Positions 41,969-58,251 of a stretch of 64,000 bases of DNA are shown here, piece by piece. How positions within the stretch are numbered: position 1 is the stretch's first letter; each line of letters begins with the position of its first letter. Under the pieces are notes generated by a model, which made no database searches, had not been told where the DNA came from, and was given only the letters and a program-made list of their open reading frames with translations. A program made the position numbers and the translations under genes. This DNA is from Campylobacteraceae bacterium (GTDB lineage: Bacteria; Campylobacterota; Campylobacteria; Campylobacterales; Arcobacteraceae). The stretch is taken from NCBI GenBank assembly GCA_013373175.1, contig JABXII010000016.1:1-64000 (forward strand), given 5' to 3'.

Positions 41969-41986
41969 GAAAGCAGTTTTTTGGTA

Positions 41987-42886
41987 ATGATTAATACAAA
42001 TAAAAAACCAAAAATAGTTTGGCTACAAGCTATAACATGTAATGGCAATACTCATTCACTTTTAAGTGCAAATGCAAATAGGTTAAAACTATTTTTAGAT
42101 AGTTTTGATTTAGTTTATCACCCTTCATTAACTACTGATACTTTACTAGATGACTTACTTAAAGAAGATAAAGAGATTGACTTTTTACTTGTTGAAGGTG
42201 CAATTACTTCAAATAAAGAGTTTTATCAAATATCTGACCAAACTATAAGTGAAGTCTTAAAAAAGCTTGTTTTAAAATCAAAATATTTAATAGCTGTTGG
42301 TTCTTGTGCTTCTTATGGGGGAGTACACAAAAAATTTGAACAAAATAGTGATATTTGGGGTTTAAAAGAGGCTTTAGAAAAAGAAGACACTTCTTCTTTA
42401 TTTCATCCAATAGTTAATCTTACAGGTTGTCCTGTTCATCCTGAGTGGATATTTCAAACTCTATTTTCACTAAAAGAGTATCAACAAATTGCTTTAGATG
42501 AAATGGGAAGACCTAAAGAAATCTATTCTTATTTAGCACACCATGGTTGTACAAGAAATGAATATTTTGAGTGGAAGGTTGAAGCAAAATCTTTTGGACT
42601 AAAAGAAGGGTGTCTTTTTTATGAACAAGGTTGCCGTGGTCCTATGACTCACTCAAATTGCAATAAAATACTTTGGAATGATGTAAACACAAAGACACGA
42701 GCTGGTATGCCATGTATTGGTTGTACAGAGTTTGATTTTCCTAGAAATAATATGCTTGAAACAAAAAAGAATATAGGAATACCTGATGAAGTGCCTTTAG
42801 GTGTTACTAAAAGAGCATATCTGTCTTTAGCTGGTGTTGCAAAGACTTTTAAAATAGATAGATTAAATGAAAAGATTATTAAATGA
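41987..42886 (+). CDS. hupS: [NiFe]-hydrogenase small subunit, cytosolic group 2-like
   Basis: The 299-residue protein has no Tat signal and begins near the WLQ motif (KIVWLQAITCNGNTHSLL), as in group 2 uptake and sensory hydrogenases. Proximal-cluster ligands: Cys18, then Asn21 where a second Cys is usual, Cys in VGSCASYGG and Cys in LTGCPVHP. Distal-cluster ligands: HHGCTRNE and GCLFYEQGCRGP. Medial: SNCNKI and MPCIGCTEFDF. An Asn at that place also occurs in cyanobacterial HupS as far as I recall. The subgroup (2b, 2d or other) is not settled. It overlaps the large-subunit gene by four bases. Confidence 0.9.
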   Translation: MINTNKKPKIVWLQAITCNGNTHSLLSANANRLKLFLDSFDLVYHPSLTTDTLLDDLLKEDKEIDFLLVEGAITSNKEFYQISDQTISEVLKKLVLKSKYLIAVGSCASYGGVHKKFEQNSDIWGLKEALEKEDTSSLFHPIVNLTGCPVHPEWIFQTLFSLKEYQQIALDEMGRPKEIYSYLAHHGCTRNEYFEWKVEAKSFGLKEGCLFYEQGCRGPMTHSNCNKILWNDVNTKTRAGMPCIGCTEFDFPRNNMLETKKNIGIPDEVPLGVTKRAYLSLAGVAKTFKIDRLNEKIIK

Positions 42887-44238
42887 AAACTGTAGATATA
42901 GTAGAAAGAATAGAAGGTGAAGCTAAGCTTGTTTGTCAGTGGGAAAAAGAAAAGATATCAGATGTAAAAATACAGTTTTTAAACTTTAGAGGTTTTGAGT
43001 TCATCTTAAAAGATAAACCTGCTTTAGATGCACTTGTTTACACTCCAAGAATTTGTGGTATTTGCGGACAAGCTCATTTAAAAGCTACAGTAGAATCATT
43101 AGAAAATATTTATAAAAATCATAATGAAAAACTAACTTTAACAAATAAAGCAAAACTACTTAGAGAGATTGGATTAAATATTGAAATTATAGATTCACAT
43201 ATAAAATGGTTTTATATGTTTATTATGCCAGATGTCGTTAAGTTTTCAAATAATAGTTTAGATGAATATTCTGCTTTAAAAGGAAAAAAATGGCTAGAAG
43301 CTTCAAATATTGCAAGTGAAACTATTAAATCCTTAGCCATTATTGGAGGGCAGTGGCCACATACTTCTTATATGATTCCAGGTGGAGTAGTTTCAGACCC
43401 TACCTTATTAGATTTAGCAACAATGCAAAACTATATGGACCAAGCAATTAGATTTTATGAAAATAGTTTAGTAGGCAATGATTTAGATACTTATCTTAAC
43501 TTTAATAAAAGTGAAGACTTATATAAAGTAAAAGGGGATTTAAAAGATTTTATAACAATTTCTTTTGAAAATGAATTTGAAAAAATTGGAAAATCATATG
43601 ATAGACATTTGGTATTAGGAGATTCTCTTTCATTTGAAAAAGGAAAGATAAGCAAAAAATTAACTAAAAATATTGATTATGAAAATATAGAAGAATTTAC
43701 GATGAATAGTTTTGATATTGATAAATCAAAAGTATCAAAGGAAGCATATACTTGGTCAAAAACTGCACTGTATGCAAATAACTTTTATGAAACAGGACCT
43801 CTTTCAAGAGCAGTTGTACAAGATAGAAGTTTTGTAAGTGATATTCATAAACATTATAGTGACTCAATGTTCACAAGAGTATTGGCAAGAATGGATGAAT
43901 TAGGCTTCTTACTTTTTAAAACAAAAGAGTTAATAAAACAAATTGATATAAATGAAGAGTCTTTTATAAAACCACAAGTTTCCCTTAAAGATTTTAGATA
44001 TGGAATTGGCCAAGCTTCTGTGGAGGCTTGCAGAGGTTCTTTGTATCATGATGTTGAAATTGAAAATGGTATTATTAGAAAATATGATGTTATAACACCT
44101 ACTGTATGGAATTTAGGACCTGGGATTGATAATAAACTTTCAATTTCACAAAAAGCAATAGTAGGAACAGACTCTTTAGAAAAAGCAAAATTGATTCTAA
44201 GAAGTTTTGATGTTTGTTCTGTTTGTACAACCCACTAA
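42883..44238 (+). CDS. hupL: [NiFe]-hydrogenase large subunit, cytosolic group 2-like, without C-terminal extension
   Basis: The 451-residue protein holds the nickel-iron site. The first pair of ligands is in RICGICGQAHLKA near residue 57, the second in SFDVCSVCTTH at the very end. The motif reads D-V-C where D-P-C is usual. The chain stops at the His, so there is no peptide for a maturation endopeptidase to remove; HoxC/HupV-type sensor subunits share this trait, and so may some other group 2 enzymes. No HupT/HoxJ-like kinase is encoded nearby. A sensory or cytosolic uptake role are both possible. Confidence 0.9.
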   Translation: MKTVDIVERIEGEAKLVCQWEKEKISDVKIQFLNFRGFEFILKDKPALDALVYTPRICGICGQAHLKATVESLENIYKNHNEKLTLTNKAKLLREIGLNIEIIDSHIKWFYMFIMPDVVKFSNNSLDEYSALKGKKWLEASNIASETIKSLAIIGGQWPHTSYMIPGGVVSDPTLLDLATMQNYMDQAIRFYENSLVGNDLDTYLNFNKSEDLYKVKGDLKDFITISFENEFEKIGKSYDRHLVLGDSLSFEKGKISKKLTKNIDYENIEEFTMNSFDIDKSKVSKEAYTWSKTALYANNFYETGPLSRAVVQDRSFVSDIHKHYSDSMFTRVLARMDELGFLLFKTKELIKQIDINEESFIKPQVSLKDFRYGIGQASVEACRGSLYHDVEIENGIIRKYDVITPTVWNLGPGIDNKLSISQKAIVGTDSLEKAKLILRSFDVCSVCTTH

Positions 44239-44378: not shown

Positions 44379-44449
44379 CATTTTAACAAAAAATGTCATT
44401 TTTGATAATTTTAAATTAAGTAATAAATAGTTAATTTTACAATGATAAT

Positions 44450-44465
44450 AAATGAATATTCATTT
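44450..44465. promoter_or_regulatory. Operator candidate C, in the hydA1 leader
   Basis: AAATGAATATTCATTT is a perfect 16-base palindrome. Its centre is 110 bases after that of site B and its end is 21 bases before the hydA1 start codon, nearly the same distance as site E before hydA2. A protein here could act as a transcription roadblock. Confidence 0.7.
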
Positions 44466-44486
44466 AAAAGCTTAAAGGAGAAGGGG

Positions 44487-45725
44487 ATGATTGATTCTCA
44501 AGAGATGGTAAAAAAAGTTTTTACCCAGAATTCCGCTAGAATTGACACGAATAAAGGTGATGCTTATTATAATTCGCTTTTTGAAAAAGCAAAAAGTAGA
44601 TTAGCTGCATTAAGAAAGCAACCTGCACTTAAAGATATCGATTTAATGGAGGTTGTAGAAAGTGAAGGTGTAAATAGAAGAGACTTTATGAAGTGGGCAA
44701 GTGCAACAACTGCAACACTTATGTTACCTCCTATGTTTACTCCTTTAGTTGCTGAAGCAACAGAACTTATGAATAGAGTTCCTGTTGTTTGGATTGAGTT
44801 ACAAGACTGTGCTGGTAACTCAGAAGCTATTTTAAGGTCAGCTACTCCAACTGTAGATGATTTACTTTTTGATGTACTATCTTTAGAGTATCATCATACA
44901 TTACAAGCTGCTTCAGGTCATCAAGCTGAACATCAGTTAGAAGATGCAATTCATACTTTTAAAGGGAAATATTTACTATTTGTTGAAGGTGCAATTCCAA
45001 AAGCAATGAATGGACAATATGGAACAATTGGTCCTGGTGGTGAAACATTTGAAGATAATCTTAAAAGATTATCAAAAGATGCTGCTGCTGTAGTTGCTGT
45101 TGGTACATGTGCTACATTTGGTGGTATTCCAGCTGCTGCTCCAAATCCAACAGGTGCCGTTGGTGTTATGGATATTGTAAAAGGTAAGCCAATTATTAAT
45201 ATCCCTGCCTGTCCAGCAAACCCAGCTAATATGGTTGGTGTAGTTTTACATTATGTATTAACAGGTCAAATTCCTGAGTTAGACTCATTATTAAGACCTA
45301 AATTTGCATTTGGGTATAGAATTCATGATAACTGTGAAAGAAGAGCACACTTTGATGCAGGTGAGTATGTAGAAGAGTGGGGTGATGATGGAGCTAAAAA
45401 TAACTGGTGTCTATACAAAATGGGTTGTAAAGGACCAATGACATTTAACAATTGTTCTATTATTAGATATAACGAAGGTGCAAACTGGCCTATTGGTGTT
45501 GGTCGTGGTTGTATTGGTTGTTCTGAACCAGATTTCTGGGATAAATATGCATATGAAAGACCAATGGCAGATGCAAATATTAAAGCTCCTACTGGTGGAG
45601 TAGAAAAAACTGTAGATGAGTTCGGTCTAGGGCTATTAACAGCTACATCAATTGGTATTGGTGTACATGCCGTAGCAAGTGCAGTTGCAGGAAAAAGAAC
45701 AGTTCATAGTGAAGATGAGGAATAA
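44487..45725 (+). CDS. hydA1: [NiFe]-hydrogenase small subunit HydA, variant proximal cluster (module 1)
   Basis: The 412-residue precursor has a Tat signal (NRRDFMKWASATTATLMLPP near residue 63) behind an unusually long leader, and a C-terminal membrane helix (about 385-405). Proximal ligands: Cys108 then Asn111 in ELQDCAGNSEAILR, where CxxC is expected, Cys in VGTCATFGG and in NIPACPANP. Distal: HDNCERR and WCLYKMGCKGP. Medial: FNNCSIIR and RGCIGCSEPDFWD. Start ATG 44487 has AAAGGAG in front; the longer reading from 44442 would put operator C inside the gene. It should be exported with HydB1 and oxidise H2 at the periplasmic face. Confidence 0.93.
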   Translation: MIDSQEMVKKVFTQNSARIDTNKGDAYYNSLFEKAKSRLAALRKQPALKDIDLMEVVESEGVNRRDFMKWASATTATLMLPPMFTPLVAEATELMNRVPVVWIELQDCAGNSEAILRSATPTVDDLLFDVLSLEYHHTLQAASGHQAEHQLEDAIHTFKGKYLLFVEGAIPKAMNGQYGTIGPGGETFEDNLKRLSKDAAAVVAVGTCATFGGIPAAAPNPTGAVGVMDIVKGKPIINIPACPANPANMVGVVLHYVLTGQIPELDSLLRPKFAFGYRIHDNCERRAHFDAGEYVEEWGDDGAKNNWCLYKMGCKGPMTFNNCSIIRYNEGANWPIGVGRGCIGCSEPDFWDKYAYERPMADANIKAPTGGVEKTVDEFGLGLLTATSIGIGVHAVASAVAGKRTVHSEDEE

Positions 45726-45728
45726 CAA

Positions 45729-47465
45729 ATGAGTAAACACGTAGTAATAGATCCAATAACAAGAATTGAAGGACATCTTAGAATTGAAGCTGTAATTGAT
45801 GATAATAATGTTATTCAAGAAGCTTATAGTTCATCAACGATGTTCAGAGGTATTGAAGAAATTCTAAAAGGTAGAGACCCAAGAGACTGTGGTCTTTTAG
45901 CTATGAGAATTTGTGGTGTATGTACTGGAACTCACTATCAAAGAAGTATTGAAGCTGTTGAGCATGCGTTTAATGTAACTATTCCAAAAAATGCAAGAAT
46001 AGTTAGAAATCTTATGCAAGGTGGATTATATATTCATGACCATATTGTTCACTTCTATCACTTACATGCTTTAGACTGGGTAGATATTACAAAAGCCTTA
46101 GAAGCAGATCCAAAGAAAACTGTAGAAGAAGCACAAAAATGGGCTAAACTTTCAGGTCAAAGAGCTTGGAATGCAAGTGAAGATAACTATGCAGCAGTTC
46201 AAGAAAGAGTTACTAAGTATGTAAAACAAGGAAGACTTGGTATTTTTGGAAATGCATACTGGGGAAGTAAAGCTTATAAATTAACTCCTGAGCAAAACTT
46301 AATTGGTCTTTCTCACTATTTAGATGCTTTAGACTTACAAAGAGAAGTAGCAAAAGCACAAGCAATTTTTGGTGGTAAAAACCCACACCCACAATCAATT
46401 GTAGTTGGTGGAGTAACTTGTGTTCAAGATATCAAAAACCCAGTAAGAGTTGCTGAGTTTAAAGATATTATTCAAAAAGCTCTTAAGTTTGCAAAAGAAG
46501 CATATTTACCAGATGTTTATATGGCTGGAACAATGTATGCAGATGAGGCACTTGAAGGTGTTGGTGCTGGTATTGGTAACTTTATGTCTTATGGTGATTT
46601 TAACTTAGATGATTTACCGTTTTATAAGTCATCAAAGCTATTCCCATCTGGTATTGTTATGAATAAAGACTTATCAAAAGTATATGACTTAGACCAAACT
46701 AAAATTACAGAAGATGTAACTCATGCTTGGTATGAGGGAACTACAAATAAACACCCATATGATGGTGTGACTGACCCTAAATATACTGGATTTAGAGAGA
46801 AAAAAGATGGTATCGCTTATTTAGATACTGACAATAAATATTCTTGGATTAAGTCACCATTATATGATGATGAAAGAATGGAAGTTGGTCCATTAGCAAG
46901 AATGGTTGTAGGAGTGGCACGTGGTGATAAAAAAATCACTGAGCATGTAACTAAATTCTTAAAAAATGGAAATCTTCCAACAAAAGTTCTTTTCTCAACA
47001 GTAGGAAGAACAGCAGCACGTGCTATTGAAACTGAGCTAATGTGTGAAGAAGTTATCAAATGGTGTGATGAGTTAGCAGTAAATGTTGCAAGTGGTGATT
47101 TATCTACTTGGACTGAATTTGATTTTGATAAAGTAGCAAAAGATGCTCAAGGATTTGGTATGGCTGAAGCACCAAGAGGTAGTTTAGGTCACTGGGTTAA
47201 AATCAAAGATGGAAAAGTAGTAAATTATCAAGCAGTTGTTCCTTCAACTTGGAATGCTGCACCAAAAGATTATAAAGGAAGATTAGGAGCATATGAAGCT
47301 TCACTAGTTGGAACTAAAGTTGTTAATCCTGATGAGCCTTTAGAAATTATTAGAACAGTACATAGTTTTGACCCTTGTATCGCTTGTGCAGTTCATATTG
47401 TAGATACAAATGGAAAAGAATTGGCAGTTTATAAAGTAGATCCTGTAGGAGGATGCCGTGCCTAA
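45729..47465 (+). CDS. hydB1: [NiFe]-hydrogenase large subunit HydB (module 1)
   Basis: The 578-residue subunit carries the nickel-iron centre. L1 is RICGVCTGTHYQRSIEAVE (near residue 60) and L2 is SFDPCIACAVH, followed by a 23-residue C-terminal peptide (IVDTNGKELAVYKVDP and on) that a HydD-type endopeptidase would remove after His. The protein opens VIDPITRIEGHLRIE, as in periplasmic group 1 uptake enzymes. It starts four bases after hydA1 and its 3' end overlaps hydC1 by eight bases. Confidence 0.97.
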   Translation: MSKHVVIDPITRIEGHLRIEAVIDDNNVIQEAYSSSTMFRGIEEILKGRDPRDCGLLAMRICGVCTGTHYQRSIEAVEHAFNVTIPKNARIVRNLMQGGLYIHDHIVHFYHLHALDWVDITKALEADPKKTVEEAQKWAKLSGQRAWNASEDNYAAVQERVTKYVKQGRLGIFGNAYWGSKAYKLTPEQNLIGLSHYLDALDLQREVAKAQAIFGGKNPHPQSIVVGGVTCVQDIKNPVRVAEFKDIIQKALKFAKEAYLPDVYMAGTMYADEALEGVGAGIGNFMSYGDFNLDDLPFYKSSKLFPSGIVMNKDLSKVYDLDQTKITEDVTHAWYEGTTNKHPYDGVTDPKYTGFREKKDGIAYLDTDNKYSWIKSPLYDDERMEVGPLARMVVGVARGDKKITEHVTKFLKNGNLPTKVLFSTVGRTAARAIETELMCEEVIKWCDELAVNVASGDLSTWTEFDFDKVAKDAQGFGMAEAPRGSLGHWVKIKDGKVVNYQAVVPSTWNAAPKDYKGRLGAYEASLVGTKVVNPDEPLEIIRTVHSFDPCIACAVHIVDTNGKELAVYKVDPVGGCRA

Positions 47466-48189
47466 AATGAAGCGGGTTGAAAGAATGACCCCAATCATGC
47501 GAATCATTCACTGGACGAATGCTATTTGTATGATTGTTGCGGTTGCAACCGGGCTATATATCGGATATCCATACTATCAAACATTAATTGCTGACCCAGC
47601 AGTTGATAAATATGTGATGGCATGGAATAGATGGGGACATTTCATTGCTGCAATTATTTTTGATGTTACAGCAATTTTAATTGGGTATTTATATCTTTTC
47701 TCAAGGTTTGAAAAACCATATAGAAAGATTTTACCTACAAAGAAAAACTTTATTGAGTTTTGTGAAGTGTTCTTTAACTTAATGACATTTAATAGAAGAA
47801 AAAAATTTGATACAGAACATAGTGATTCTTATAACATTATGTTCTTTACACTTTTTCATATTCTATTAGTGTTTATGTTATTAACTGGTCTTCAAATGTA
47901 TGTACATGGCTTAGCATCTGGGCATAGTTCTATTGGAGCTTGGTGGCCTTGGATGCTGCACTTTGCTACTGATTGGACTTTAGATGTATTTGGTGGAAAT
48001 ATGGGAGTTAGAATTGCTCATCACACAGCTATGTATTTAATTATTATGTGGGTTATGTGTCATATTTATTATCAAGTATGGAGAACAATTTTCTGGAGAG
48101 AAGGTGATATCAATATTGTATTTGGTGGAACAAAATTTGTTAATAAAAATATTGTTGATCCGAAAAAGAAAGTAGAAAAAAAAGCCTAA
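47458..48189 (+). CDS. hydC1: Hydrogenase cytochrome b subunit HydC (module 1)
   Basis: The 243-residue di-haem cytochrome b anchors the hydrogenase and passes electrons to quinone. It has four main helices and haem-ligand His candidates in IIHWTNAICM, RWGHFIAAIIF and HHTAMYLIIMWVMCHIYYQ. The start is GTG 47458, preceded by GGAGGA inside the end of hydB1. A terminator-like hairpin lies 22 bases after the stop. Confidence 0.93.
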   Translation: MPKMKRVERMTPIMRIIHWTNAICMIVAVATGLYIGYPYYQTLIADPAVDKYVMAWNRWGHFIAAIIFDVTAILIGYLYLFSRFEKPYRKILPTKKNFIEFCEVFFNLMTFNRRKKFDTEHSDSYNIMFFTLFHILLVFMLLTGLQMYVHGLASGHSSIGAWWPWMLHFATDWTLDVFGGNMGVRIAHHTAMYLIIMWVMCHIYYQVWRTIFWREGDINIVFGGTKFVNKNIVDPKKKVEKKA

Positions 48190-48308: not shown

Positions 48309-48884
48309 ATGAGAAATATTGTAATTGGGGTTGGTAATGTATTGTTTAAAGATGAAGGAGTAGGGATTTATGCTTCTAAGTTTTTACAACAAAATTATAA
48401 GTTTGATGATAGTTTAGAAATAATTGACGGGGGAACTTTAGGGTTTAAATTAATGACATATTTCCAAGAGTATGATAATGTTATTATTTTAGACACTATT
48501 TCAACGGAGGATGAAGCAGGTTCTATTTATAGACTTCCTTCTGATGTTTTACTAGGAATGGGACAATATAGAAAAACAGCCCATGAAGTTGAGATTGTAG
48601 AGATGCTTGAAATTTGTTCTGTTTTAGATAAACATGCAATAGTTACTATTTTAGGTATTATTCCTGAAGATATTGAAGCAGTTGAAATAGGTTTAACTTC
48701 AACGTTAGAAGAGAAGTTTGATGGCTATATTTCACAAGCATTACAAGAGATTGAGAGTATTGGTGTAACAATAGAAAAAGTTGATAATAAAGACTTAAAA
48801 ACAATCGCGCAAGAGTTGATTGGAAGTTACAATGGTGAACATTTAACAAGAATTCCTAATGAGGAAGATACTACATGGAATTAA
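48309..48884 (+). CDS. hydD1: Hydrogenase maturation endopeptidase HydD (module 1)
   Basis: The 191-residue protein is an M52-family (HyaD/HybD) protease. Nickel-binding positions are visible as GNVLFKDEGVG (Glu), IDGGTLGFKL (Asp) and TAHEVEIVEML (His). It would trim the C-terminal peptide of HydB1. The gene overlaps hydE1 by ten bases. Confidence 0.93.
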   Translation: MRNIVIGVGNVLFKDEGVGIYASKFLQQNYKFDDSLEIIDGGTLGFKLMTYFQEYDNVIILDTISTEDEAGSIYRLPSDVLLGMGQYRKTAHEVEIVEMLEICSVLDKHAIVTILGIIPEDIEAVEIGLTSTLEEKFDGYISQALQEIESIGVTIEKVDNKDLKTIAQELIGSYNGEHLTRIPNEEDTTWN

Positions 48885-50410
48885 TTTATAAAATAGATTT
48901 TAATACAACAAACTTTTATTTTAAGCATATTATAGATGATTTAATCCAAGAAACTAAAATTAAAGCTACATGTAAAATGTATAGAGGTTTTATTCTTTTA
49001 GTTTGTGAGGATGAAGCTGAAATGATTGAAGATTTCTTCAAAGTACTAGAACAAAAGCTTCCTTTATCTATTTTTATTTCAAATGCACAAGTTATAGAAA
49101 ACTTTGATTTTGATGCCTTTACTGAGTTAAAAGAGCAAGACGTAAAACTAAATCTTTCTTTACTAACAAATGATGAAATTAACAAAACTATAAATGAAAA
49201 TAACATTGACTTTACAAATGATATTGAAAAAATAAAATCAGGTGGAGTATCAAGATTTGAAACTCATAATGGATTAAAAGACCTATTCTTACCTTCAACA
49301 AAATTAAGAGAAGAGTTTGAAGCAAAAGGTTATGAAGTAAAACTTTTAATTACAAATGTAAGTAATATCTCAAACTTAGTTGATATTTCACAAAAAGATT
49401 TACAACTTTTATGTTCAATAGAAAGACCTCTTGTAAAATTAAAATTTAAACTTTTACAAAATGCTAAAGGAGAGTTTTCAAATACTAGATTTATCTATGC
49501 AAAGATTGCAGATGATAAAGAGACTTTACTTTTTACACAAGCACTAAAAGAAAATGGAATTGATTATTTACTTTATGTAAATGATGAAGTTTACCAAGAT
49601 GGTTTAAAAGTTACCTATAATGAAGAGCAAAATATAATCATACACGGTGATAAAGGTCTTTTCCCTAAATATGATTATGATTTAAAAAGAAGAGTTAACT
49701 CTAGTGAAGACTACTTTGAAGAGTATGGCTCAATTTATAAAGCATGTATTGCACAATTTAATAAAAGATTAGTACCTACAATTGGAGCTTATTTTTCATA
49801 TACAAGTTGTGAATCAGCTATTAAAATAAATAGTGTAGAACATGGTGAAAAATGCATAGTAGAAGTTCCAAATGTACTTAATAATATTGATAAATGTTTT
49901 GAAGATATTAAAAGTATAGATGAAAATACAAGTAGATTAATAGATAACTATACAAAAAAATTTCCTAAATATTTTGAAAAAGAGTTTGTAGATACAGATG
50001 CTGATGGGTTTGAAGCTATTTTGAATTTACTTGCATACTGTTTAGGGATGAAAGATTATAAACAGTTTGAAGATACAGCTTTAATGTATGCAGGGAAAAG
50101 TGGACTTCAAATAGATATGAAAATTATGCAAATAGATGGTAAAAACTATTTAGACTATAGAAGAATTATTCAAAGTACTTTAAGCTACAAGATGGCAGAT
50201 GTAGAAAATACTTTATTAGCATACTCTTTTTATGAGTCATTATGTGATTTTATTTCTGATAATGTAACTGAAATCCAAAGTGATTTTAATGCAAAAGATA
50301 TTATTCTTTGTGGAGATATGTTTGCAAACTCAATTCTACTTTCAAAATTAAATAAAAAACTAAATACAATTAACACTCTTATTCCAAAAGAATACCCACT
50401 AGATTACTAA
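48875..50410 (+). CDS. hydE1: Hydrogenase accessory protein HydE (module 1), HypF-like
   Basis: The 511-residue protein stands where hydE lies in Helicobacter and Wolinella; HydE is required for hydrogenase activity in H. pylori. I see likeness to HypF: an acylphosphatase-sized N-terminal part, a YrdC-like stretch with LLCSIERPLVKLKFK, and a Kae1-like end (VENTLLAYSFYESLCDFIS, then IILCGDMFANSILLSKL). The chain stops at KEYPLDY, at the point where HypF goes on to its NDGGIS motif. No zinc-finger cysteines are visible. This looks like a degenerate HypF relative with altered or lost catalysis. Confidence 0.78.
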   Translation: MELIYKIDFNTTNFYFKHIIDDLIQETKIKATCKMYRGFILLVCEDEAEMIEDFFKVLEQKLPLSIFISNAQVIENFDFDAFTELKEQDVKLNLSLLTNDEINKTINENNIDFTNDIEKIKSGGVSRFETHNGLKDLFLPSTKLREEFEAKGYEVKLLITNVSNISNLVDISQKDLQLLCSIERPLVKLKFKLLQNAKGEFSNTRFIYAKIADDKETLLFTQALKENGIDYLLYVNDEVYQDGLKVTYNEEQNIIIHGDKGLFPKYDYDLKRRVNSSEDYFEEYGSIYKACIAQFNKRLVPTIGAYFSYTSCESAIKINSVEHGEKCIVEVPNVLNNIDKCFEDIKSIDENTSRLIDNYTKKFPKYFEKEFVDTDADGFEAILNLLAYCLGMKDYKQFEDTALMYAGKSGLQIDMKIMQIDGKNYLDYRRIIQSTLSYKMADVENTLLAYSFYESLCDFISDNVTEIQSDFNAKDIILCGDMFANSILLSKLNKKLNTINTLIPKEYPLDY

Positions 50411-50542: not shown

Positions 50543-50556
50543 AATGAATATTCATT
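50543..50556. promoter_or_regulatory. Operator candidate E, in the hydA2 leader
   Basis: AATGAATATTCATT is a perfect palindrome with the same core as site C. It ends 20 bases before the preferred hydA2 start codon, the same geometry as site C at hydA1. Confidence 0.7.
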
Positions 50557-50576
50557 CATTGAATAAAGGATGGATT

Positions 50577-51737
50577 TTGCAAGAGCAAAGACTATACGAA
50601 AAATTAACTAAAAGATTAAGTGATTTAGAAAAACTTCCTAGACTTAGAGAAGAGAAGTCTATTGAAAGTCACTTAGAGGAAAAAGGTGTTTCTAGAAGAG
50701 ATTTTATGAAATGGGCTAGTGCGATTACTGCTATGTTAGCTCTTCCTGGAACTTTTACTCCACTTGTTGCAAAGGCTGCAAAATTAAGTGATAGGTTACC
50801 TATTATCTGGTTACACATGGCTGAGTGTACTGGATGTAGTGAATCACTTTTAAGAACTGATGCACCTACAATTGACTCATTAATTTTTGATTATATTTCA
50901 TTAGAGTATCACGAAACATTAATGGCAGCAGCAGGTTGGCAGGCTGAGAACAATTTAGAACATGCAATTGAAACTTATAAGGGACAATATATTTTAATGG
51001 TAGAAGGTGGAATTCCTTCAGGAAATAGTGCTCACTATTTAACTATTGGTGGACATGGGCATACAGGGGAATATTCTGCTAAAAAAGCATCTAAAAATGC
51101 TGCTGCAATTTTTGCTATTGGTACATGTTCTTCTTATGGTGGTGTTCAAGCAGCAATTCCAAATCCAACAGGAGCAGTTGCACTCTCTAAAATTACTGAT
51201 AAACCAGTTATTAATGTTCCAGGTTGTCCACCAAGTGAAAAAAATATTGTAGGAACTTTATTACATTATATTCTTTATGGAACACTTCCTGCACTTGATG
51301 CATACAATAGACCAAAATGGGCTTATGCAAATAGAGTACATGACTTATGTGAAAGAAGAGGTCACTTTGATGCAGGTGAATTTGTAGAAGAGTTTGGAGA
51401 TGAAGGTGCTAAGAAAGGTTACTGTTTATATAAAGTAGGTTGTAAAGGACCTTATACTTTTAATAACTGTTCTAAAAATAAGTTTAATTCTCATATGTCT
51501 TGGCCTATTCAAGCAGGTCATGGTTGTATAGGATGTTCTGAACCTGATTTTTGGGATACTATGGGACCATTTGAAGAACCAGTTGCAAATAGATTATATA
51601 GCACAGTATTTAAAGGTCTAGGTGCAGATGCAACAGCAGATAAAATTGGTGTTGGATTATTAACAGTAACAGGTATCGGTATTGCAGCACATGCAGCTAT
51701 TTCTAAATTTAAAAATCCAAAAGATGGTGAGGAGTAA
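50577..51737 (+). CDS. hydA2: [NiFe]-hydrogenase small subunit HydA, canonical (module 2)
   Basis: The 386-residue precursor has the Tat motif SRRDFMKWASAITAMLALPG near residue 39 and a C-terminal membrane helix. Unlike HydA1 it has the full proximal set: Cys84 and Cys87 in MAECTGCSESLLR, Cys in IGTCSSYGG and in VPGCPPSEKN. Distal (HDLCERR, YCLYKVGCKGP) and medial (FNNCSKN, HGCIGCSEPDFWD) ligands are complete. The start TTG 50577 has AAAGGA six bases upstream; ATG 50544 lies inside operator E and has no ribosome binding site. It resembles the single HydA of Campylobacter and Helicobacter. Confidence 0.92.
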   Translation: MQEQRLYEKLTKRLSDLEKLPRLREEKSIESHLEEKGVSRRDFMKWASAITAMLALPGTFTPLVAKAAKLSDRLPIIWLHMAECTGCSESLLRTDAPTIDSLIFDYISLEYHETLMAAAGWQAENNLEHAIETYKGQYILMVEGGIPSGNSAHYLTIGGHGHTGEYSAKKASKNAAAIFAIGTCSSYGGVQAAIPNPTGAVALSKITDKPVINVPGCPPSEKNIVGTLLHYILYGTLPALDAYNRPKWAYANRVHDLCERRGHFDAGEFVEEFGDEGAKKGYCLYKVGCKGPYTFNNCSKNKFNSHMSWPIQAGHGCIGCSEPDFWDTMGPFEEPVANRLYSTVFKGLGADATADKIGVGLLTVTGIGIAAHAAISKFKNPKDGEE

Positions 51738-51740
51738 ATT

Positions 51741-53471
51741 ATGGCAAATAAAAGAGTAGTAGTAGACCCAATTACAAGAATTGAAGGACACTTAAGAATT
51801 GAGGTTGAAGTTGATGAAAACAATGTTATTCAAAATGCTTATTCTACATCAACACTTTGGAGAGGTTTAGAAACTATTGTTAAAAATAGAGACCCTAGAG
51901 ATGCAGGTTTCTTAATGCAAAGAATTTGTGGAGTTTGTACTTTTTCTCATTATAGAGCTGGAATTGAAGCAGTTGAAGATGCCCTTGGTATTGTTCCTCC
52001 TTTAAATGCAAAATTAACTAGGTCTTTAATGAATATGGCTTTATTTATGCATGACCATGTTGTTCACTTCTATCATTTACATGGACTTGATTGGGTTGAT
52101 GTTGTTTCAGCACTTGATGCAGACCCTGCTAAAGCTTCTAAAGAGGCATTTAAATATGCAGAACTTCCAATTGCAACTGGTGAAAATGACCTTAAAAAAG
52201 TTAAAAGAAGAGTAAAAGAGTTTGTTGATAAAGGACAATTAGGGCCTTTTGCAAATGCTTATTGGGGACATAAAACTTATAGATTAACTCCTGAGCAAAA
52301 CTTAATTTTATTATCTCACTATTTAAAAGCTTTAGAAGTACAAAGAGACTTAGCAAAACTTATGGCTATGTTTGGTGGTAAACAACCACACCCTCAAAGT
52401 TTAACTGTTGGTGGTGTAACTTGTGTAATGGACTTAATGGACCCAAGTAGAATGGGTGAGTATTTAACTTTATTTAAAGTTGGTTCAGAATTTATCGAAA
52501 ATGCCTACCAAGCTGATGTTATTATGGCAGCAAAAATGTATAAAGATGAAGCATCTGTAACAGAACAAGCTGGTGTTATGAACTTTATGTCTCATCAAGA
52601 GATGCAATTAAATAGAACAGAGTTTTTATTTGATACTGGTATTATTGAAAATGGAGATTTATCAAAGGTATTTGATATCAATGAGGATTTAATCACTGAA
52701 GAAGCAACTCACTCTTGGTATGCTGATAATGAAGCTTTACATCCATATAATGGTAAAACAAACCCTAATTATACTGGATTTAAAGATATGGATACAGTAG
52801 GTCCTGATGGAAAAATGATTCACTCTAAAGTAATCGATGAAAATGGTAAATACTCTTGGATTAAATCACCAAGATATGATGGTAAACCAATGGAAGTTGG
52901 TCCACTAGCTTGTATTTTAATTTCTTATGCAAAAGGAAATGAAAAAATTGTTCCACTTGTAGATGACTTTTTAGCTAAAACAGGACTTCCAAAAGCAGCA
53001 TTATTTACAACTTTAGGAAGAACAGCAGCTAGAATGATTCAAGTAAGAGCAATCGCTAAACATGGATTAGAGGCATTTAATACATTAATTGAGAATTTAA
53101 AAGTTGACCAAGACACTTACACTTCTTATAAAATTGACAAAAATAAAGAGTATAGAGGAAGATTTATAGGTGATGTTCCAAGAGGTATGCTTTCTCACTG
53201 GATTAGAATTAAAAATGGAGTTGTAGAAAACTATCAAGCAGTTGTTCCTTCAACTTGGAATGCAGGACCAATTGATTCATTAGGACAAATAGGACCTTAT
53301 GAAGCAAATTTAGTGGGACTAAAAGTTCAAGACTTAACTCAACCTTTAGAGATTATTAGAGTTATTCACTCTTTTGACCCTTGTATTGCTTGTGCAGTTC
53401 ATGTAATGGATAAAAAAGGTAATGATTTAGGTACATACAAGGTAGATCCAATTTATGGACTATCTTGTTAA
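51741..53471 (+). CDS. hydB2: [NiFe]-hydrogenase large subunit HydB (module 2)
   Basis: The 576-residue subunit has L1 as RICGVCTFSHYRAGIEAVE and L2 as SFDPCIACAVH, followed by a C-terminal peptide (VMDKKGNDLGTYKVDP and on) to be removed by HydD. It is a clear paralogue of HydB1, with the same opening (DPITRIEGHLRIEVEV) and length but many differences in the middle. It follows hydA2 by three bases and hydC2 comes nine bases later. Confidence 0.97.
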   Translation: MANKRVVVDPITRIEGHLRIEVEVDENNVIQNAYSTSTLWRGLETIVKNRDPRDAGFLMQRICGVCTFSHYRAGIEAVEDALGIVPPLNAKLTRSLMNMALFMHDHVVHFYHLHGLDWVDVVSALDADPAKASKEAFKYAELPIATGENDLKKVKRRVKEFVDKGQLGPFANAYWGHKTYRLTPEQNLILLSHYLKALEVQRDLAKLMAMFGGKQPHPQSLTVGGVTCVMDLMDPSRMGEYLTLFKVGSEFIENAYQADVIMAAKMYKDEASVTEQAGVMNFMSHQEMQLNRTEFLFDTGIIENGDLSKVFDINEDLITEEATHSWYADNEALHPYNGKTNPNYTGFKDMDTVGPDGKMIHSKVIDENGKYSWIKSPRYDGKPMEVGPLACILISYAKGNEKIVPLVDDFLAKTGLPKAALFTTLGRTAARMIQVRAIAKHGLEAFNTLIENLKVDQDTYTSYKIDKNKEYRGRFIGDVPRGMLSHWIRIKNGVVENYQAVVPSTWNAGPIDSLGQIGPYEANLVGLKVQDLTQPLEIIRVIHSFDPCIACAVHVMDKKGNDLGTYKVDPIYGLSC

Positions 53472-53480
53472 GGAGCAGTC

Positions 53481-54146
53481 ATGATTAAAAAACATTATGA
53501 GTTTTCATTTTGGGTTAGAATCACTCACTGGGTAAGAGCTATAGCTATTGTAGTTCTTACTTTTACTGGGTTTTATCTTGCAGTTCCTTTTATAGCTCCT
53601 GCACTTAATCAAGGAGAGCCAAACAACTATTTATATGCTTTAATGAGATCATGGCATATTATTTTTGGATTTCTTTTAATTGCAGTTACAATTGGAAAGT
53701 TTTATTTATTTATTTTTGATAAACAAAGTCAAATTGAAAGAGTTTCTTTTTGGGATTTTATTAATCCAAAAGTATGGGTAAAACAAATTAAATATTATCT
53801 ATTAATTGGAAAACATGCCAGATTAAAAGGTGTATATAATCCTTTACAGTTTGTTGCATATTTAGGTGTTTATATCACACTTATCGTAATATGTATTACA
53901 GGTTTAGTTTTACATATGCATGTTTATCATGAAGGTTTAGGCGGATTTTTATATGAGTTTTTAAGACCTTTAGAAGTTATGATGGGTTCCCTTGCAATGG
54001 TTAGAGAAATTCATCATATAGCTATGTGGTTTTTTATTGTATTTTTACCAATTCATATTTATCTTGCTATATTTAACTCTGTTTATGGAAAAAGTGGAGC
54101 AATGGATTCTATTGTTTCTGGATATAAATGGGAAGAAGAACATTAA
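53481..54146 (+). CDS. hydC2: Hydrogenase cytochrome b subunit HydC (module 2)
   Basis: The 221-residue cytochrome b has haem-ligand candidates in RITHWVRAIAIVV, MRSWHIIFGFLL and REIHHIAMWFFIVFLPIHIY, with four membrane helices. AAGGAGCAGTC precedes the ATG. It anchors HydA2-HydB2 and delivers electrons to the quinone pool. The stop codon overlaps the hydD2 start codon (TAATG). Confidence 0.93.
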   Translation: MIKKHYEFSFWVRITHWVRAIAIVVLTFTGFYLAVPFIAPALNQGEPNNYLYALMRSWHIIFGFLLIAVTIGKFYLFIFDKQSQIERVSFWDFINPKVWVKQIKYYLLIGKHARLKGVYNPLQFVAYLGVYITLIVICITGLVLHMHVYHEGLGGFLYEFLRPLEVMMGSLAMVREIHHIAMWFFIVFLPIHIYLAIFNSVYGKSGAMDSIVSGYKWEEEH

Positions 54147-54706
54147 TGAATGTATTAATATTAGGAATAGGGAACATATTGTTTCAAGATGAAGGAATAG
54201 GAGCTCATTTTATTCATTATTTAGATGAAAAATATGAATTTGAAGCTAAAGATTCTACTGTTAGCATTGTAGATGGTGGAACTTTAGCTCAAAGACTTAT
54301 TCCTCTTATAGTAAAGTATGATGAGCTTATTGTAGTTGACTGTATTGATGCAAATGATTCAATGCCTGGTGATGTTTATTTTTTTGACTATCACAAAGCC
54401 CCTTCAAATATCAATTGGCAAGGAAGTGCCCATGAAGTAGAGATGCTTCAAACACTAAATATGATTGATATGAATAAAGATTTACCCAAAACAAATGTAT
54501 TAGGAGTTATTCCCAAAAGAGTAGCTGATGATACTACCTTTGAGTTAAGTAAAGAGATAATTAGTGCCGTCAAGCTAATGGAGGAAGTGGTAGTTAAATA
54601 TCTTAATAAATTAGATATTAAAACTAAAATAAAAAATGAAACAACAATAGAACATATTGCTCAAGTTTCTTTTAAAAGAGATATTATAAATGGTCCTAAA
54701 ATTTAA
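54146..54706 (+). CDS. hydD2: Hydrogenase maturation endopeptidase HydD (module 2)
   Basis: The 186-residue M52 protease has GNILFQDEGIG, VDGGTLAQRL and SAHEVEMLQTL, the three ligand-bearing motifs. The start is ATG 54146 in the TAATG overlap with hydC2; an upstream in-frame start would add six residues that do not match the family. It presumably processes HydB2 specifically. It overlaps hydE2 by 17 bases. Confidence 0.92.
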   Translation: MNVLILGIGNILFQDEGIGAHFIHYLDEKYEFEAKDSTVSIVDGGTLAQRLIPLIVKYDELIVVDCIDANDSMPGDVYFFDYHKAPSNINWQGSAHEVEMLQTLNMIDMNKDLPKTNVLGVIPKRVADDTTFELSKEIISAVKLMEEVVVKYLNKLDIKTKIKNETTIEHIAQVSFKRDIINGPKI

Positions 54707-56318
54707 GTTCAAATATAAAGCTTCAACTAAAACCTATGTAAATATTTTACATTCGTTTATAGAAAACTATGAATGTGAATATAAAATCTTACAGGATTTA
54801 GATCATATTTATTTATTAGTTGAAGCTAAAGAAGAAACTTTAGAGGATTTGTCAAATAACTTATCTAATTTTTTACCAATGTCAATCTACTATGAAGGAC
54901 TTGAAGTTGACGTTGTAAAAACTATGCCAAAGCTTGAAAGTGTAAAAGCTGAAGCTCAAAGCTTCAACTCTTTTTGTCCTAGTTGTTTACAAGCGGTAGA
55001 AGATGAAAAAAGTGTAAACTATTATAATGCCTTTAAATTTTGTAAAGCTTGTAAGACATTTGAAGATGGAATATTTTTATTAGATAAAAAAGAAGTAACT
55101 TCTTCAAAAGAACTTTTTGAAAACTTAGCTTCTTTTATAAATGAGAATAAAAGAATAAAGATAAAAACAATAAGTAGTACTTTTGTTTTTCAAAAGCTTC
55201 ACTCTTTAGATGAAAGTAAAACGATTTTGTGTACAAATCTAAAAAACATTTCATCTTTAGTTGTTGAAGAAAAACAATCAATAGTTGCACTAGCTAGTAT
55301 TGAAAAACCACTTATTACTTTTAAAGTAAATGAAATCTATAAGATGAAAGAAAAAGTTTCAAAAGAGTTTATAGATATAAGAGTTGCGAATGATTTAACT
55401 CTTTACTTACTTTCTAAAGAGCTTGAAAAGTATAAAATAGATTTTTTGCAAATAGAAGATGAAAACTCTTCTTATGATTATTTTTTAGATGTAAAAACTG
55501 ATGATATAGTAAATATAGATGTTCCTAAAATAATGTATTGTGAAAATAGAAAGTTTATTCTTTCTTCCAACTGCTATTCTAAAAATCTTGATGTTGTTTA
55601 TAATAGATTTGAAGAAAAAAATAAAGCTCAATTTATGACTGTCTTATCTGAAAATATGCTTTTTGATAAAGCTATTTTAAACTTTTATATTTCAAATAAA
55701 TATGATGATAGATTTACCTTTTATTCTGAAGAGTTAAATGGTTTTGTAGATACTTCAAAAAAAATTACCCTTCCTAAAAACATGAATGAACTATATAAAC
55801 AAATAAGTGAATCTAAAAGTGGAGATAGACTTTTAGAAAACTATAAACAGAAGTTCCCTAAAGAGTATGAAAATTCTTTATTATTTGATTTTACTTTAAT
55901 TAAGACAAACTCATTTTTATCATATTTCAAAGTGGCAAAAGCAATTTTAGGTTTTGAAAATAGTATATTGTCAAATGCACTAAATTGTCATTTAGAAAAA
56001 GGCCCTAGAGTTGATTTTAAAATTATTGAAAATGAAAAACTTTTTTTACGTGAGTTTGATTATGTTTCGATGTTTAAATCAGCTATGAGTTTTAAACTTG
56101 CAGGAATTGATGAAGTAACTTTATCCTTAGGTTTTATCGATAGTTTAGCAAGTTTTATAGCAAGTGAAGTTGATAAGATAAATGACCTTTATAAAGTTGA
56201 GGGTATAAGTTTATGTGGTGATATGTTTACATATGATATATTTACTAAATTAGTTTTAAAAAATATTACAAATAACTATAAGATTTATTTTAACAGGGAG
56301 TTTGTAATAGATAAATAA
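54690..56318 (+). CDS. hydE2: Hydrogenase accessory protein HydE (module 2), HypF-like with zinc ribbon
   Basis: The 542-residue protein is the paralogue of HydE1. It shows the same layout and in addition a ribbon with paired cysteines, CPSCLQAVEDEKS and FCKACKTFEDG (near residues 92-128), at the place of the HypF zinc fingers. The YrdC-like stretch has ALASIEKPLITFKVNE and the Kae1-like end has DEVTLSLGFIDSLASFIAS and ISLCGDMFTYDIF. As in HydE1 the terminal DGG motif of HypF is missing. The role is inferred from position and from work on hydE in H. pylori. Confidence 0.78.
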   Translation: MVLKFKFKYKASTKTYVNILHSFIENYECEYKILQDLDHIYLLVEAKEETLEDLSNNLSNFLPMSIYYEGLEVDVVKTMPKLESVKAEAQSFNSFCPSCLQAVEDEKSVNYYNAFKFCKACKTFEDGIFLLDKKEVTSSKELFENLASFINENKRIKIKTISSTFVFQKLHSLDESKTILCTNLKNISSLVVEEKQSIVALASIEKPLITFKVNEIYKMKEKVSKEFIDIRVANDLTLYLLSKELEKYKIDFLQIEDENSSYDYFLDVKTDDIVNIDVPKIMYCENRKFILSSNCYSKNLDVVYNRFEEKNKAQFMTVLSENMLFDKAILNFYISNKYDDRFTFYSEELNGFVDTSKKITLPKNMNELYKQISESKSGDRLLENYKQKFPKEYENSLLFDFTLIKTNSFLSYFKVAKAILGFENSILSNALNCHLEKGPRVDFKIIENEKLFLREFDYVSMFKSAMSFKLAGIDEVTLSLGFIDSLASFIASEVDKINDLYKVEGISLCGDMFTYDIFTKLVLKNITNNYKIYFNREFVIDK

Positions 56319-56346: not shown

Positions 56347-58242
56347 ATGTATAAAAAAATATATTTACTTTTTAGTGAAAATAGTAAAAATAGTCAAGAT
56401 GAAATAAATAAATATCTCAAGGAAAAGTATAAACTCAAAGCAACTGCTAGAAATTATGATAAAAAAATAAAAGAGAAAGATGCTCTTTATCTTCTTGATT
56501 TAAATGACAAGGAAATCAAAGAATTTTTTAAAGAGCATATTGAAGACGATATAAATGTAGCTTTTTTACCCAATGATGATGCAAATAATTGTATGTCAAA
56601 TTATGGTATTTCAACTAAGTTAGAAGAAGCTATTGATGATGCTTTAAATGATAAATTATTAGCAAAAATAGATTTACTTAAGTGCAATGATGAAATTATT
56701 CTAAATAAAATAGAAATAGGTGAAATGCATGGTATAAGTAACTTCAATCTAAATACAAAATTTCAAAAAATAAAAACTTTTTTTAAAAACCTAGTTAATA
56801 TAAAATTCAAATCATATAAGTTTACAACTGCCGAAGATTATAGTTTTGAAACAGTTGCTTCAGGTATCATAATTTTAGAACATTCATTAAACAGTACTAA
56901 CACTGCTTTAAAGGATAAATTATCTATTCAAGATGGGAAATTAAATACTTTAATACTATCTCCTGGGTCTCTTATAGCTTATTTCTTTTATTTAATTCTA
57001 ATATTTTTTTATGAAAAAATCTCAATAGTATCTCGTCCTAAAAGTTTAGGATTTATTAAAAGTAAGTCTTTAAAAATTCAATCAAAAGAATCTATGGATT
57101 ATATTGCTGATGATATTGTGGTAAAAGATGTAAAAACTATTGAAGTTTCTGTTTTAAAAGATACTTTTAATTTGCACTTAGGAAGCAAACTAGAAGAGTA
57201 TATAAAAGATGATGATAAAGATAAAGAGGAAGAAGAGTTAGTAGATGTAGATAACTTACCAAAAGAAGAGCTTAGTGAGGTTTTATTAAAAAAGAAATTG
57301 CCATTTTTTAAGAAAGCTTCAGAAGAGGATTTCAAAGATTTAAATTTAACTCTTAGAAAAAACTCAGAGATTACATTTATTTTTTCTACACTGATGATTT
57401 TAAGTAGTTTATTATCTACTACTGGATTATTTGCCAATTCTTCTCCTGTTATTATTGGTGCAATGATTTTAGCTCCTTTAATGGCTCCTTTAATTTCATT
57501 AGCAATGGGAGTAATAAGAGCTAATAGCTTATTGATTATTCAAAGTACTAAAACTTTAACTTTTGGAGTTTTCTTAGCTTTATTTGTATCTTCAATTTTC
57601 ACTTGCTTTATGCCTTTAGATGAAATAACTTATGAAATGGAAAGTAGATTACATCCTAATTTATTAGATTTATTTGTGGCAATTTTTTCTGGAATAGCAG
57701 GAGCTTATGCCAACTCAAAAGAAGACGTAATTAAATCCTTAGCAGGTGTAGCAATAGCTGTTGCTTTAGTACCTCCTTTAAGTGTTACAGGTATTGGTAT
57801 TGGTTTAATGGACTTAGATATTATTTATGGAGCATTTTTACTTTTTCTTACTAACTTAGTAGGAATGACACTTAGTGCCTCTTTAACTTTTATTATTATG
57901 GGTTATGCCCCAATCAAAAAAGCTAAAAAAGGTTTAATCTATACATTTTTACTATTAGTTTTAATTAGTGTACCTTTAGCAAATACTTTTGGAAAAATGG
58001 TTGAAAAAAATGACTTATCAAATAAAATAAAAGAGATTAAAAAAGTAAATATAAATGATAAAGCTATAGTCTTAAAGCTTCTAGATTTAGAAGATAGAAA
58101 AGAGTATGTTTACGTGAGAATGGAGCTTATAAGTAACAGTTATACTAGTACTTTAGAGTATAAAGAAATAAGAAAAAGAATAGAAAAAGAATTAGAGCGA
58201 AAAATACTTTTAGAAGTGTCTTCAAAATTAATAGTTAATTAA
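56347..58242 (+). CDS. DUF389 (TIGR00341-type) membrane protein with a kinase-like N-terminal domain
   Basis: The 631-residue protein joins a soluble part (about 1-280) resembling diacylglycerol-kinase/NAD-kinase-type folds (VAFLPNDDANNCMSNYG, then EIGEMHGISNF and SLGFIKSKSLKIQSKES) to a DUF389 membrane domain from about residue 340 (LSTTGLFANSSPVIIGAMIL, APLMAPLISLAMGVIRANS, VAIAVALVPPLSVTGIGIG). An acidic linker lies between. The N-terminal assignment is tentative. It stands between hydE2 and hypF on the same strand with short gaps, so it is probably co-transcribed, but a role in hydrogen metabolism is not shown. Confidence 0.75.
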   Translation: MYKKIYLLFSENSKNSQDEINKYLKEKYKLKATARNYDKKIKEKDALYLLDLNDKEIKEFFKEHIEDDINVAFLPNDDANNCMSNYGISTKLEEAIDDALNDKLLAKIDLLKCNDEIILNKIEIGEMHGISNFNLNTKFQKIKTFFKNLVNIKFKSYKFTTAEDYSFETVASGIIILEHSLNSTNTALKDKLSIQDGKLNTLILSPGSLIAYFFYLILIFFYEKISIVSRPKSLGFIKSKSLKIQSKESMDYIADDIVVKDVKTIEVSVLKDTFNLHLGSKLEEYIKDDDKDKEEEELVDVDNLPKEELSEVLLKKKLPFFKKASEEDFKDLNLTLRKNSEITFIFSTLMILSSLLSTTGLFANSSPVIIGAMILAPLMAPLISLAMGVIRANSLLIIQSTKTLTFGVFLALFVSSIFTCFMPLDEITYEMESRLHPNLLDLFVAIFSGIAGAYANSKEDVIKSLAGVAIAVALVPPLSVTGIGIGLMDLDIIYGAFLLFLTNLVGMTLSASLTFIIMGYAPIKKAKKGLIYTFLLLVLISVPLANTFGKMVEKNDLSNKIKEIKKVNINDKAIVLKLLDLEDRKEYVYVRMELISNSYTSTLEYKEIRKRIEKELERKILLEVSSKLIVN

Positions 58243-58251
58243 AGTGTGTTA

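Follow-up and report, generated by a model that had tools for sequence, protein, structure and literature searches.

A clade of membrane-anchored [NiFe] hydrogenases, largely from Campylobacterota, with asparagine in place of the second proximal-cluster cysteine

Results

Three consecutive [NiFe] hydrogenases

The window analysed here is a stretch of 64,000 nucleotides in which three [NiFe] hydrogenases follow one another, i.e. a group 2-like pair (41981-44238), HydA1B1C1 (44442-48189) and HydA2B2C2 (50544-54146). The genes and residues of interest are:

41981..44238, + strand: third [NiFe] pair, group 2-like, small subunit with CNGN (ORFs; best PDB match HucS)
44442..45725, + strand: HydA1, Asn-type [NiFe] hydrogenase small subunit with Tat signal and C-terminal anchor (ORF, TIGR00391, PF01058, PF14720, tree position)
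44808..44810, + strand: Cys123 of HydA1, first proximal ligand, kept (direct reading and alignment)
44817..44819, + strand: Asn126 codon AAC of HydA1, slot of the second proximal-cluster Cys (direct reading and alignment)
45108..45110, + strand: Cys223 of HydA1, third proximal ligand, kept (direct reading and alignment)
45210..45212, + strand: Cys257 of HydA1, fourth proximal ligand, kept (direct reading and alignment)
45216..45218, + strand: Ala259 of HydA1, replacing a Pro invariant in the Cys-type small subunits examined (alignment)
45729..47465, + strand: HydB1, large subunit with RICGVCTGTH and SFDPCIACAVH, C-terminal extension present (ORF, profile search, alignment)
47458..48189, + strand: HydC1, cytochrome b561-type membrane subunit (PF01292; TIGR02125 below cut-off)
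48309..48884, + strand: HydD1, hydrogenase maturation protease (PF01750 HycI)
48875..50410, + strand: HydE1-like protein with HypF-C subdomain (PF22521)
50544..51737, + strand: HydA2, canonical CTGC small subunit of the group 1b clade (ORF, motif, trees)
51741..54146, + strand: HydB2 and HydC2 of the canonical enzyme (ORFs, profile search)

The second proximal-cluster Cys is absent from two of the three hydrogenases, HydA1 and the group 2-like enzyme. The small subunit of the latter starts with TTG, and its large subunit ends in CSVCTTH without a C-terminal extension. Dozens of loci keep this pair directly before HydA1. It also occurs on plasmids, in Sulfurimonas paralvinellae (L124) and in Sulfurovum mangrovi (L128), and a gene annotated as a TetR-family regulator precedes it. 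Two HydE-like proteins of ~510-540 aa, one per hydrogenase operon, are encoded at 48875-50410 and 54690-56318; the first has the HypF-C subdomain, while the second has no Pfam match. A 631-aa membrane protein (56347-58242) lies between hydE2 and a hypF-like gene (58246-60480), and in L124 and L128 hypF is preceded by a hypothetical protein of 641 aa, similar in size.

HydA1 has Asn at the second proximal position

HydA1 is 427 aa long in the ORF list, exceeds the TIGR00391 cut-off by 454 bits in the profile search and matches PF01058 and PF14720; the TAT_signal match is weak, just below cut-off, and the RRDFMKW motif is present. TIGR00391, Tat signal, C-terminal anchor, large-subunit L1/L2 Cys and cytochrome b are all those of a group 1 membrane-bound [NiFe] hydrogenase, and the Tat motif, anchor and cytochrome b partner support the prediction of an earlier note on this DNA that the enzyme is membrane-bound and Tat-exported. 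The NiFe ligands of the HydB1-type large subunit are conserved in the alignment of relatives, which argues that the enzyme has not decayed. The His residues of HydC1 are conserved in 77 relatives.

Bases 44805-44822 read gac tgt gct ggt aac tca, i.e. D122 C123 A124 G125 N126 S127 of HydA1. In the alignment, the column of Asn126 holds Cys in groups 1a, 1b, 1c, 1d and 1e and Asn in HucS, and the earlier note was thus right that Asn replaces the second proximal-cluster Cys. It was also right that the other ligands are kept: in the alignment of 198 sequences, HydA1 retains 11 of 12 cluster ligands, with C123, C223 and C257 at the proximal, H295, C298, C323 and C329 at the distal, and C338, the Pro of NWP, C357 and C360 at the medial cluster. 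No additional conserved Cys column is present in the HydA1 clade in this alignment, and there is therefore no obvious replacement Cys. On this ground we reject a replacement Cys elsewhere in HydA1, which the note had named as a finding that would refute its reading.

The paralogue HydA2 reads E-C-T-G-C at 50823-50837. The note had described the AAC codon as three changes away from a simple error; this holds against the TGT of HydA2, from which it differs in three bases, while only two bases separate it from TGC. Nothing speaks for a sequencing error or a decaying gene as the explanation of the codon. The same residue is present in >90 sequences, both AAC and AAT were found at this slot among other genomes in the motif search, and the large-subunit motifs are intact. 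Both Asn codons being in use, the Asn of HydA1 is not a sequencing error; conservation rules out error and pseudogene alike, and we give this explanation practically no weight. Asn126 of HydA1 is real and conserved, and the Asn-site enzyme is probably functional.

The Asn type is widespread

In 80 relatives taken from titled genome records, the matching ORFs have [QS]DCAGN[ST]EA almost without exception. The record titles name Arcobacter, Aliarcobacter, Poseidonibacter, Sulfurimonas, Sulfurovum, Sulfuricurvum and Nitratifractor as well as one MAG filed as Thiotrichales (L031). Small subunits of the HydA1 type with DCAGN number at least 90 and come from Arcobacteraceae, Sulfurimonas, Sulfurovum, Sulfuricurvum and relatives. 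The spread of CxGN, which the note had proposed to gauge by an alignment, is clade-wide and far beyond chance, with CAGN in 91 ORFs of the first-collected loci and in 30/30 Sulfurimonas-genus loci; in the Sulfurimonas-like genus, CPANP accompanies CAGN in all 30 Asn-type loci. These relatives, together with earlier literature on the substitution, dispose of the idea that the motif is unique to HydA1.

Among 298 genomes of the phylum, DC[AST]GN[ST]E was found in 56 (26 of 58 genera) and ECTGC in 231; because the searches demanded exact matches, these genome counts are minimum values. The Sulfurimonas-like genus was sampled with 120 genomes; with types assigned from identity and ORF length, the Asn type was counted in 40, the Cys type in 29 and both in six. 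On the strength of these sequences, the Asn change is the mark of a whole enzyme family in sulphur- and hydrogen-oxidising marine bacteria.

The note had suggested a division of labour between HydA1 and HydA2, for example by O2 level or H2 affinity. For the organism of the window, this would fit with the adjacent tandem conserved in part of the Arcobacteraceae (L006, L010, L014, L021, L022) and with the 11 genomes that have both motifs, eight of which come from this family. On the other hand, 45 of the 56 Asn-motif genomes lack the canonical ECTGC motif, and the Asn enzyme thus works alone in most. Division of labour with a sister is, therefore, not a general rule, and even for the organism of the window we consider it rather unlikely.

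Several relatives differ in architecture. In L032 (841-3297), a pyridine-nucleotide/FAD oxidoreductase and a BFD-like [2Fe-2S] domain are fused to an Asn-type (CTGN/CSGN) small subunit, with a large subunit of its own encoded after it, in what appears to be a soluble NAD(P)-linked hydrogenase; such fusions are also present in L037, L058 and L066 and in some 35-40 ORFs of ~800-820 aa in the Sulfurimonas-like genus. Arcobacter sp. LC1 (L061, 9965-14900) encodes an anchored HydA1 with CAGN, an anchorless copy with CAGE, and then one HydB and one HydC. A small subunit with Asn (DCDGN) is encoded on a Sulfobacillus acidophilus plasmid (L125, 4821-6098), far outside Campylobacterota. Separately, matches to molybdopterin oxidoreductases with a single in-frame TGA in three genomes (G325, G345, G398) suggest selenocysteine formate dehydrogenases.

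The Asn change is ancient and accompanied by a second-sphere change

Trees were built with FastTree (198 sequences) and with IQ-TREE (45 sequences, trait columns removed). The HydA1/CAGN sequences form their own clade (support 100/99), which the soluble fusion proteins (CTGN/CSGN) join. All Asn-type group 1 sequences, including the Sulfobacillus enzyme (CDGN), form one clade with moderate support (85/73). Sister to the Asn clade, with a joint support of 99/97, is a 1b-like clade to which HydA2 and the phylum's other ECTGC sequences belong; we take it to be group 1b, the usual group of Campylobacterota HydABC. HydA1 and HydA2 are in separate deep clades and thus diverged long ago; both trees rule out a recent duplication with neofunctionalisation. 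By contrast to the specialised copy beside a canonical sister that the note had in mind, the change is ancient and clade-wide. The tree requires two changes at the Cys/Asn site, in group 2 and in the HydA1 clade.

HydA1 lacks the four-Cys proximal site (CTGC) of group 1b and branches beside the sampled 1b clade rather than within it. It also lacks the supernumerary proximal Cys pair of group 1d (CTCC and WGC) and has Asn where group 1h has Asp (CDGD in HofK). It shares the Asn at the second proximal position with group 2a and fits neither the clade of that group nor its missing Tat signal.

Ala259 of HydA1 lies two residues beyond the last proximal Cys, at a position that is Pro in 44/44 Cys-type and in 0/154 Asn/Glu-type sequences of the alignment. 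This position has Ala in HucS as well; in HofK, whose ligand slot holds Asp, it has Val. Judging from known hydrogenase structures, residue 259 presumably lies near the Asn126 slot. The covariation suggests a proximal pocket adapted to a non-Cys fourth ligand. The tree contains two phylogenetically independent contrasts (p 0.5), with HofK outside the tree; two are too few for significance, and we reject the covariation as statistical proof.

Discussion

The type of substitution is already known, and the precedents disagree on its consequences. Nostoc HupS has a Cys-to-Asn change at proximal position 2, and in the A. macleodii hydrogenase the C81N variant is still active, while ligand variants have lowered activity and poorer processing (PMC4070099). 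Group 1f enzymes have Asn or Asp for one proximal Cys, and HupS of mesophilic Methylacidiphilum has Asn (PMC5364354). Cyanobacterial HupS is reported as O2-sensitive, with three Cys and Asn holding a [4Fe-4S] cluster (PMC6616624). Huc, the group 2a enzyme that the note had cited for a [3Fe-4S] at this site, indeed has three [3Fe-4S] clusters and is O2-insensitive (PMC10017518), and its HucS PDB chain reads CSGN with Asn at the same slot as HydA1 Asn126. Thus, Asn alone predicts neither cluster type nor O2 tolerance, and the change does not serve as the pointer to O2 tolerance that the note had made of it. The groups 1d and 1h named there are weak guides to HydA1 because their changes differ, i.e. 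an extra Cys (CTCC) in 1d and an Asp (CDGD; HofK, PDB 5AA5) in 1h.

At one extreme, the substitution could be near neutral, with Asn supporting an ordinary [4Fe-4S] cluster, behaving like Cys and being a mere marker of the clade. The clade looks fully functional, one of its members tolerates Glu (L061), A. macleodii C81N is active (PMC4070099) and Nostoc HupS is reported with a [4Fe-4S] cluster (PMC6616624). However, Asn is nearly invariant over ~95 sequences and residue 259 is switched, both of which speak for selection on a specific environment, and ligand variants are less active and are processed worse (PMC4070099); we regard neutrality as improbable.

At the other extreme, the Asn site would make the clade O2-tolerant through a Huc-like [3Fe-4S] cluster of high potential, the Asn type serving oxic and the Cys-type 1b enzyme anoxic conditions. 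The residue is that of O2-insensitive Huc (PMC10017518). Moreover, among the 120 Sulfurimonas-like genomes, those with an aa3/caa3-type oxidase more often have the Asn type (10/17 vs 30/103, Fisher p 0.025, a value that ignores shared ancestry and multiple tests), while the Cys type has no such association (p 0.55). U_Sulfurimonas pluma lives in O2-saturated plumes with a hydrogenase as its most expressed catabolic gene, and is said to encode only the oxygen-sensitive type, group 1b (PMC10066037). Genome G306 (1.6 Mb, 99% complete; published S. pluma size 1.77 Mb) has a caa3-like oxidase, a strong match just below the family cut-off, and an additional superoxide reductase; the genome search found no Fe/Mn superoxide dismutase and no NapA over cut-off. 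In its reduced size, oxidase, SOD, NapA and superoxide reductase, G306 matches the published S. pluma profile and may be that organism, although its size is not the published one and some of these traits are common to other genomes of the genus. G300 (82% complete) is similar. The single hydrogenase small subunit of G306 reads CAGN (L165), i.e. it carries only the Asn type. Against this stand HupS, O2-sensitive with the same Asn (PMC6616624), the limits of the oxidase association just given, and the narrow gas channels of Huc, which help to shield its active site from O2 (PMC10017518), so that its cluster may not be the cause of its O2 insensitivity. We consider O2 tolerance of the clade possible and, on balance, unlikely. 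Still more speculatively, the Asn clade could have evolved O2 tolerance independently, as a respiratory hydrogenase that is now listed under “oxygen-sensitive group 1b”; this would explain how Campylobacterota such as plume-dwelling S. pluma burn H2 in O2-saturated water.

Our favored reading, with a probability of about 0.72, is that HydA1B1C1 takes up H2 in the periplasm as a membrane-anchored [NiFe] hydrogenase, that it belongs to an old clade found mainly in Campylobacterota and sister to group 1b, and that three Cys and Asn126 make up its proximal site. In this enzyme, H2 would be cleaved at the normal NiFe site of HydB1, and electrons would run through the proximal, then the medial and then the distal cluster to the haem b of HydC1 and on to the quinone pool. 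The proximal cluster would be held by Cys123, Cys223 and Cys257 with Asn126 in the fourth slot. The gene, its substitution, the kept ligands, the clade and the change at residue 259 are direct observations. As for cluster type, potential and bias, we infer one of two states: a [4Fe-4S] whose fourth iron is weakly capped by Asn126 through O or N, which is slightly the likelier form of the enzyme as made, or a [3Fe-4S]. Both forms would shift the proximal potential, probably upward, favoring H2 oxidation, and more strongly so with a [3Fe-4S]. Against this reading, Huc and HupS, the nearest precedents, disagree on cluster type, the correlation at residue 259 has no more than two independent contrasts in the tree with HofK outside it, and Asn126 is perhaps a bystander with water or hydroxide as the actual ligand.

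Group membership is the usual basis for predicting the O2 sensitivity of hydrogenases. A large clade from ecologically important H2 oxidisers appears to be filed as group 1b despite a different proximal site; if this site changes O2 tolerance or H2 affinity, conclusions on where these bacteria use H2 change as well. The locus also offers a natural group 1 system for probing a non-Cys fourth ligand, in which the gene cluster itself supplies a canonical paralogue. In the literature searched (most subscription journals were outside the search), no earlier description of the Asn-type Campylobacterota clade was found, nor any spectroscopy or structure of its members; what appears to be new here is the clade itself, its second-sphere signature, and a genome with the S. 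pluma profile (G306) that has the Asn type as its sole hydrogenase, an enzyme which the S. pluma paper calls oxygen-sensitive group 1b.

Among the nearest known systems is group 1b (HydABC of Wolinella, Helicobacter and Campylobacter; HydA2), with which HydA1 shares the small-large-cytochrome b operon, Tat export, TIGR00391 and a sister-clade position. However, group 1b small subunits have ECTGC and CPP, whereas the HydA1 clade has DCAGN and CPA, and the L1 motif is CTGTH in the HydA1-clade enzyme and CTYSH in group 1b. Published Sulfurimonas hydrogenases have been called 1b (PMC10066037). Huc of M. smegmatis (group 2a; PDB 7UUR/7UTD) shares the proximal Asn and the Ala at the residue-259 position, but belongs to the group 2 clade, while HydA1 has group 1 medial and distal ligands, a Tat signal, an anchor and a cytochrome b. 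Cyanobacterial HupSL, also group 2a, shares the Asn at proximal position 2 (PMC6616624, PMC4070099) and, unlike HydA1, has no signal peptide, has Gln for the distal His and is O2-sensitive (PMC6616624). Group 1f and the HupS of mesophilic Methylacidiphilum are, by published description only, group 1 enzymes with Asn (or Asp) like HydA1 (PMC5364354). Finally, HofK of group 1h (PDB 5AA5) resembles HydA1 in having a non-Cys residue at the same slot and a non-Pro residue after the last proximal Cys, but differs in that the residue is Asp (CDGD), not Asn, and in belonging to another group.
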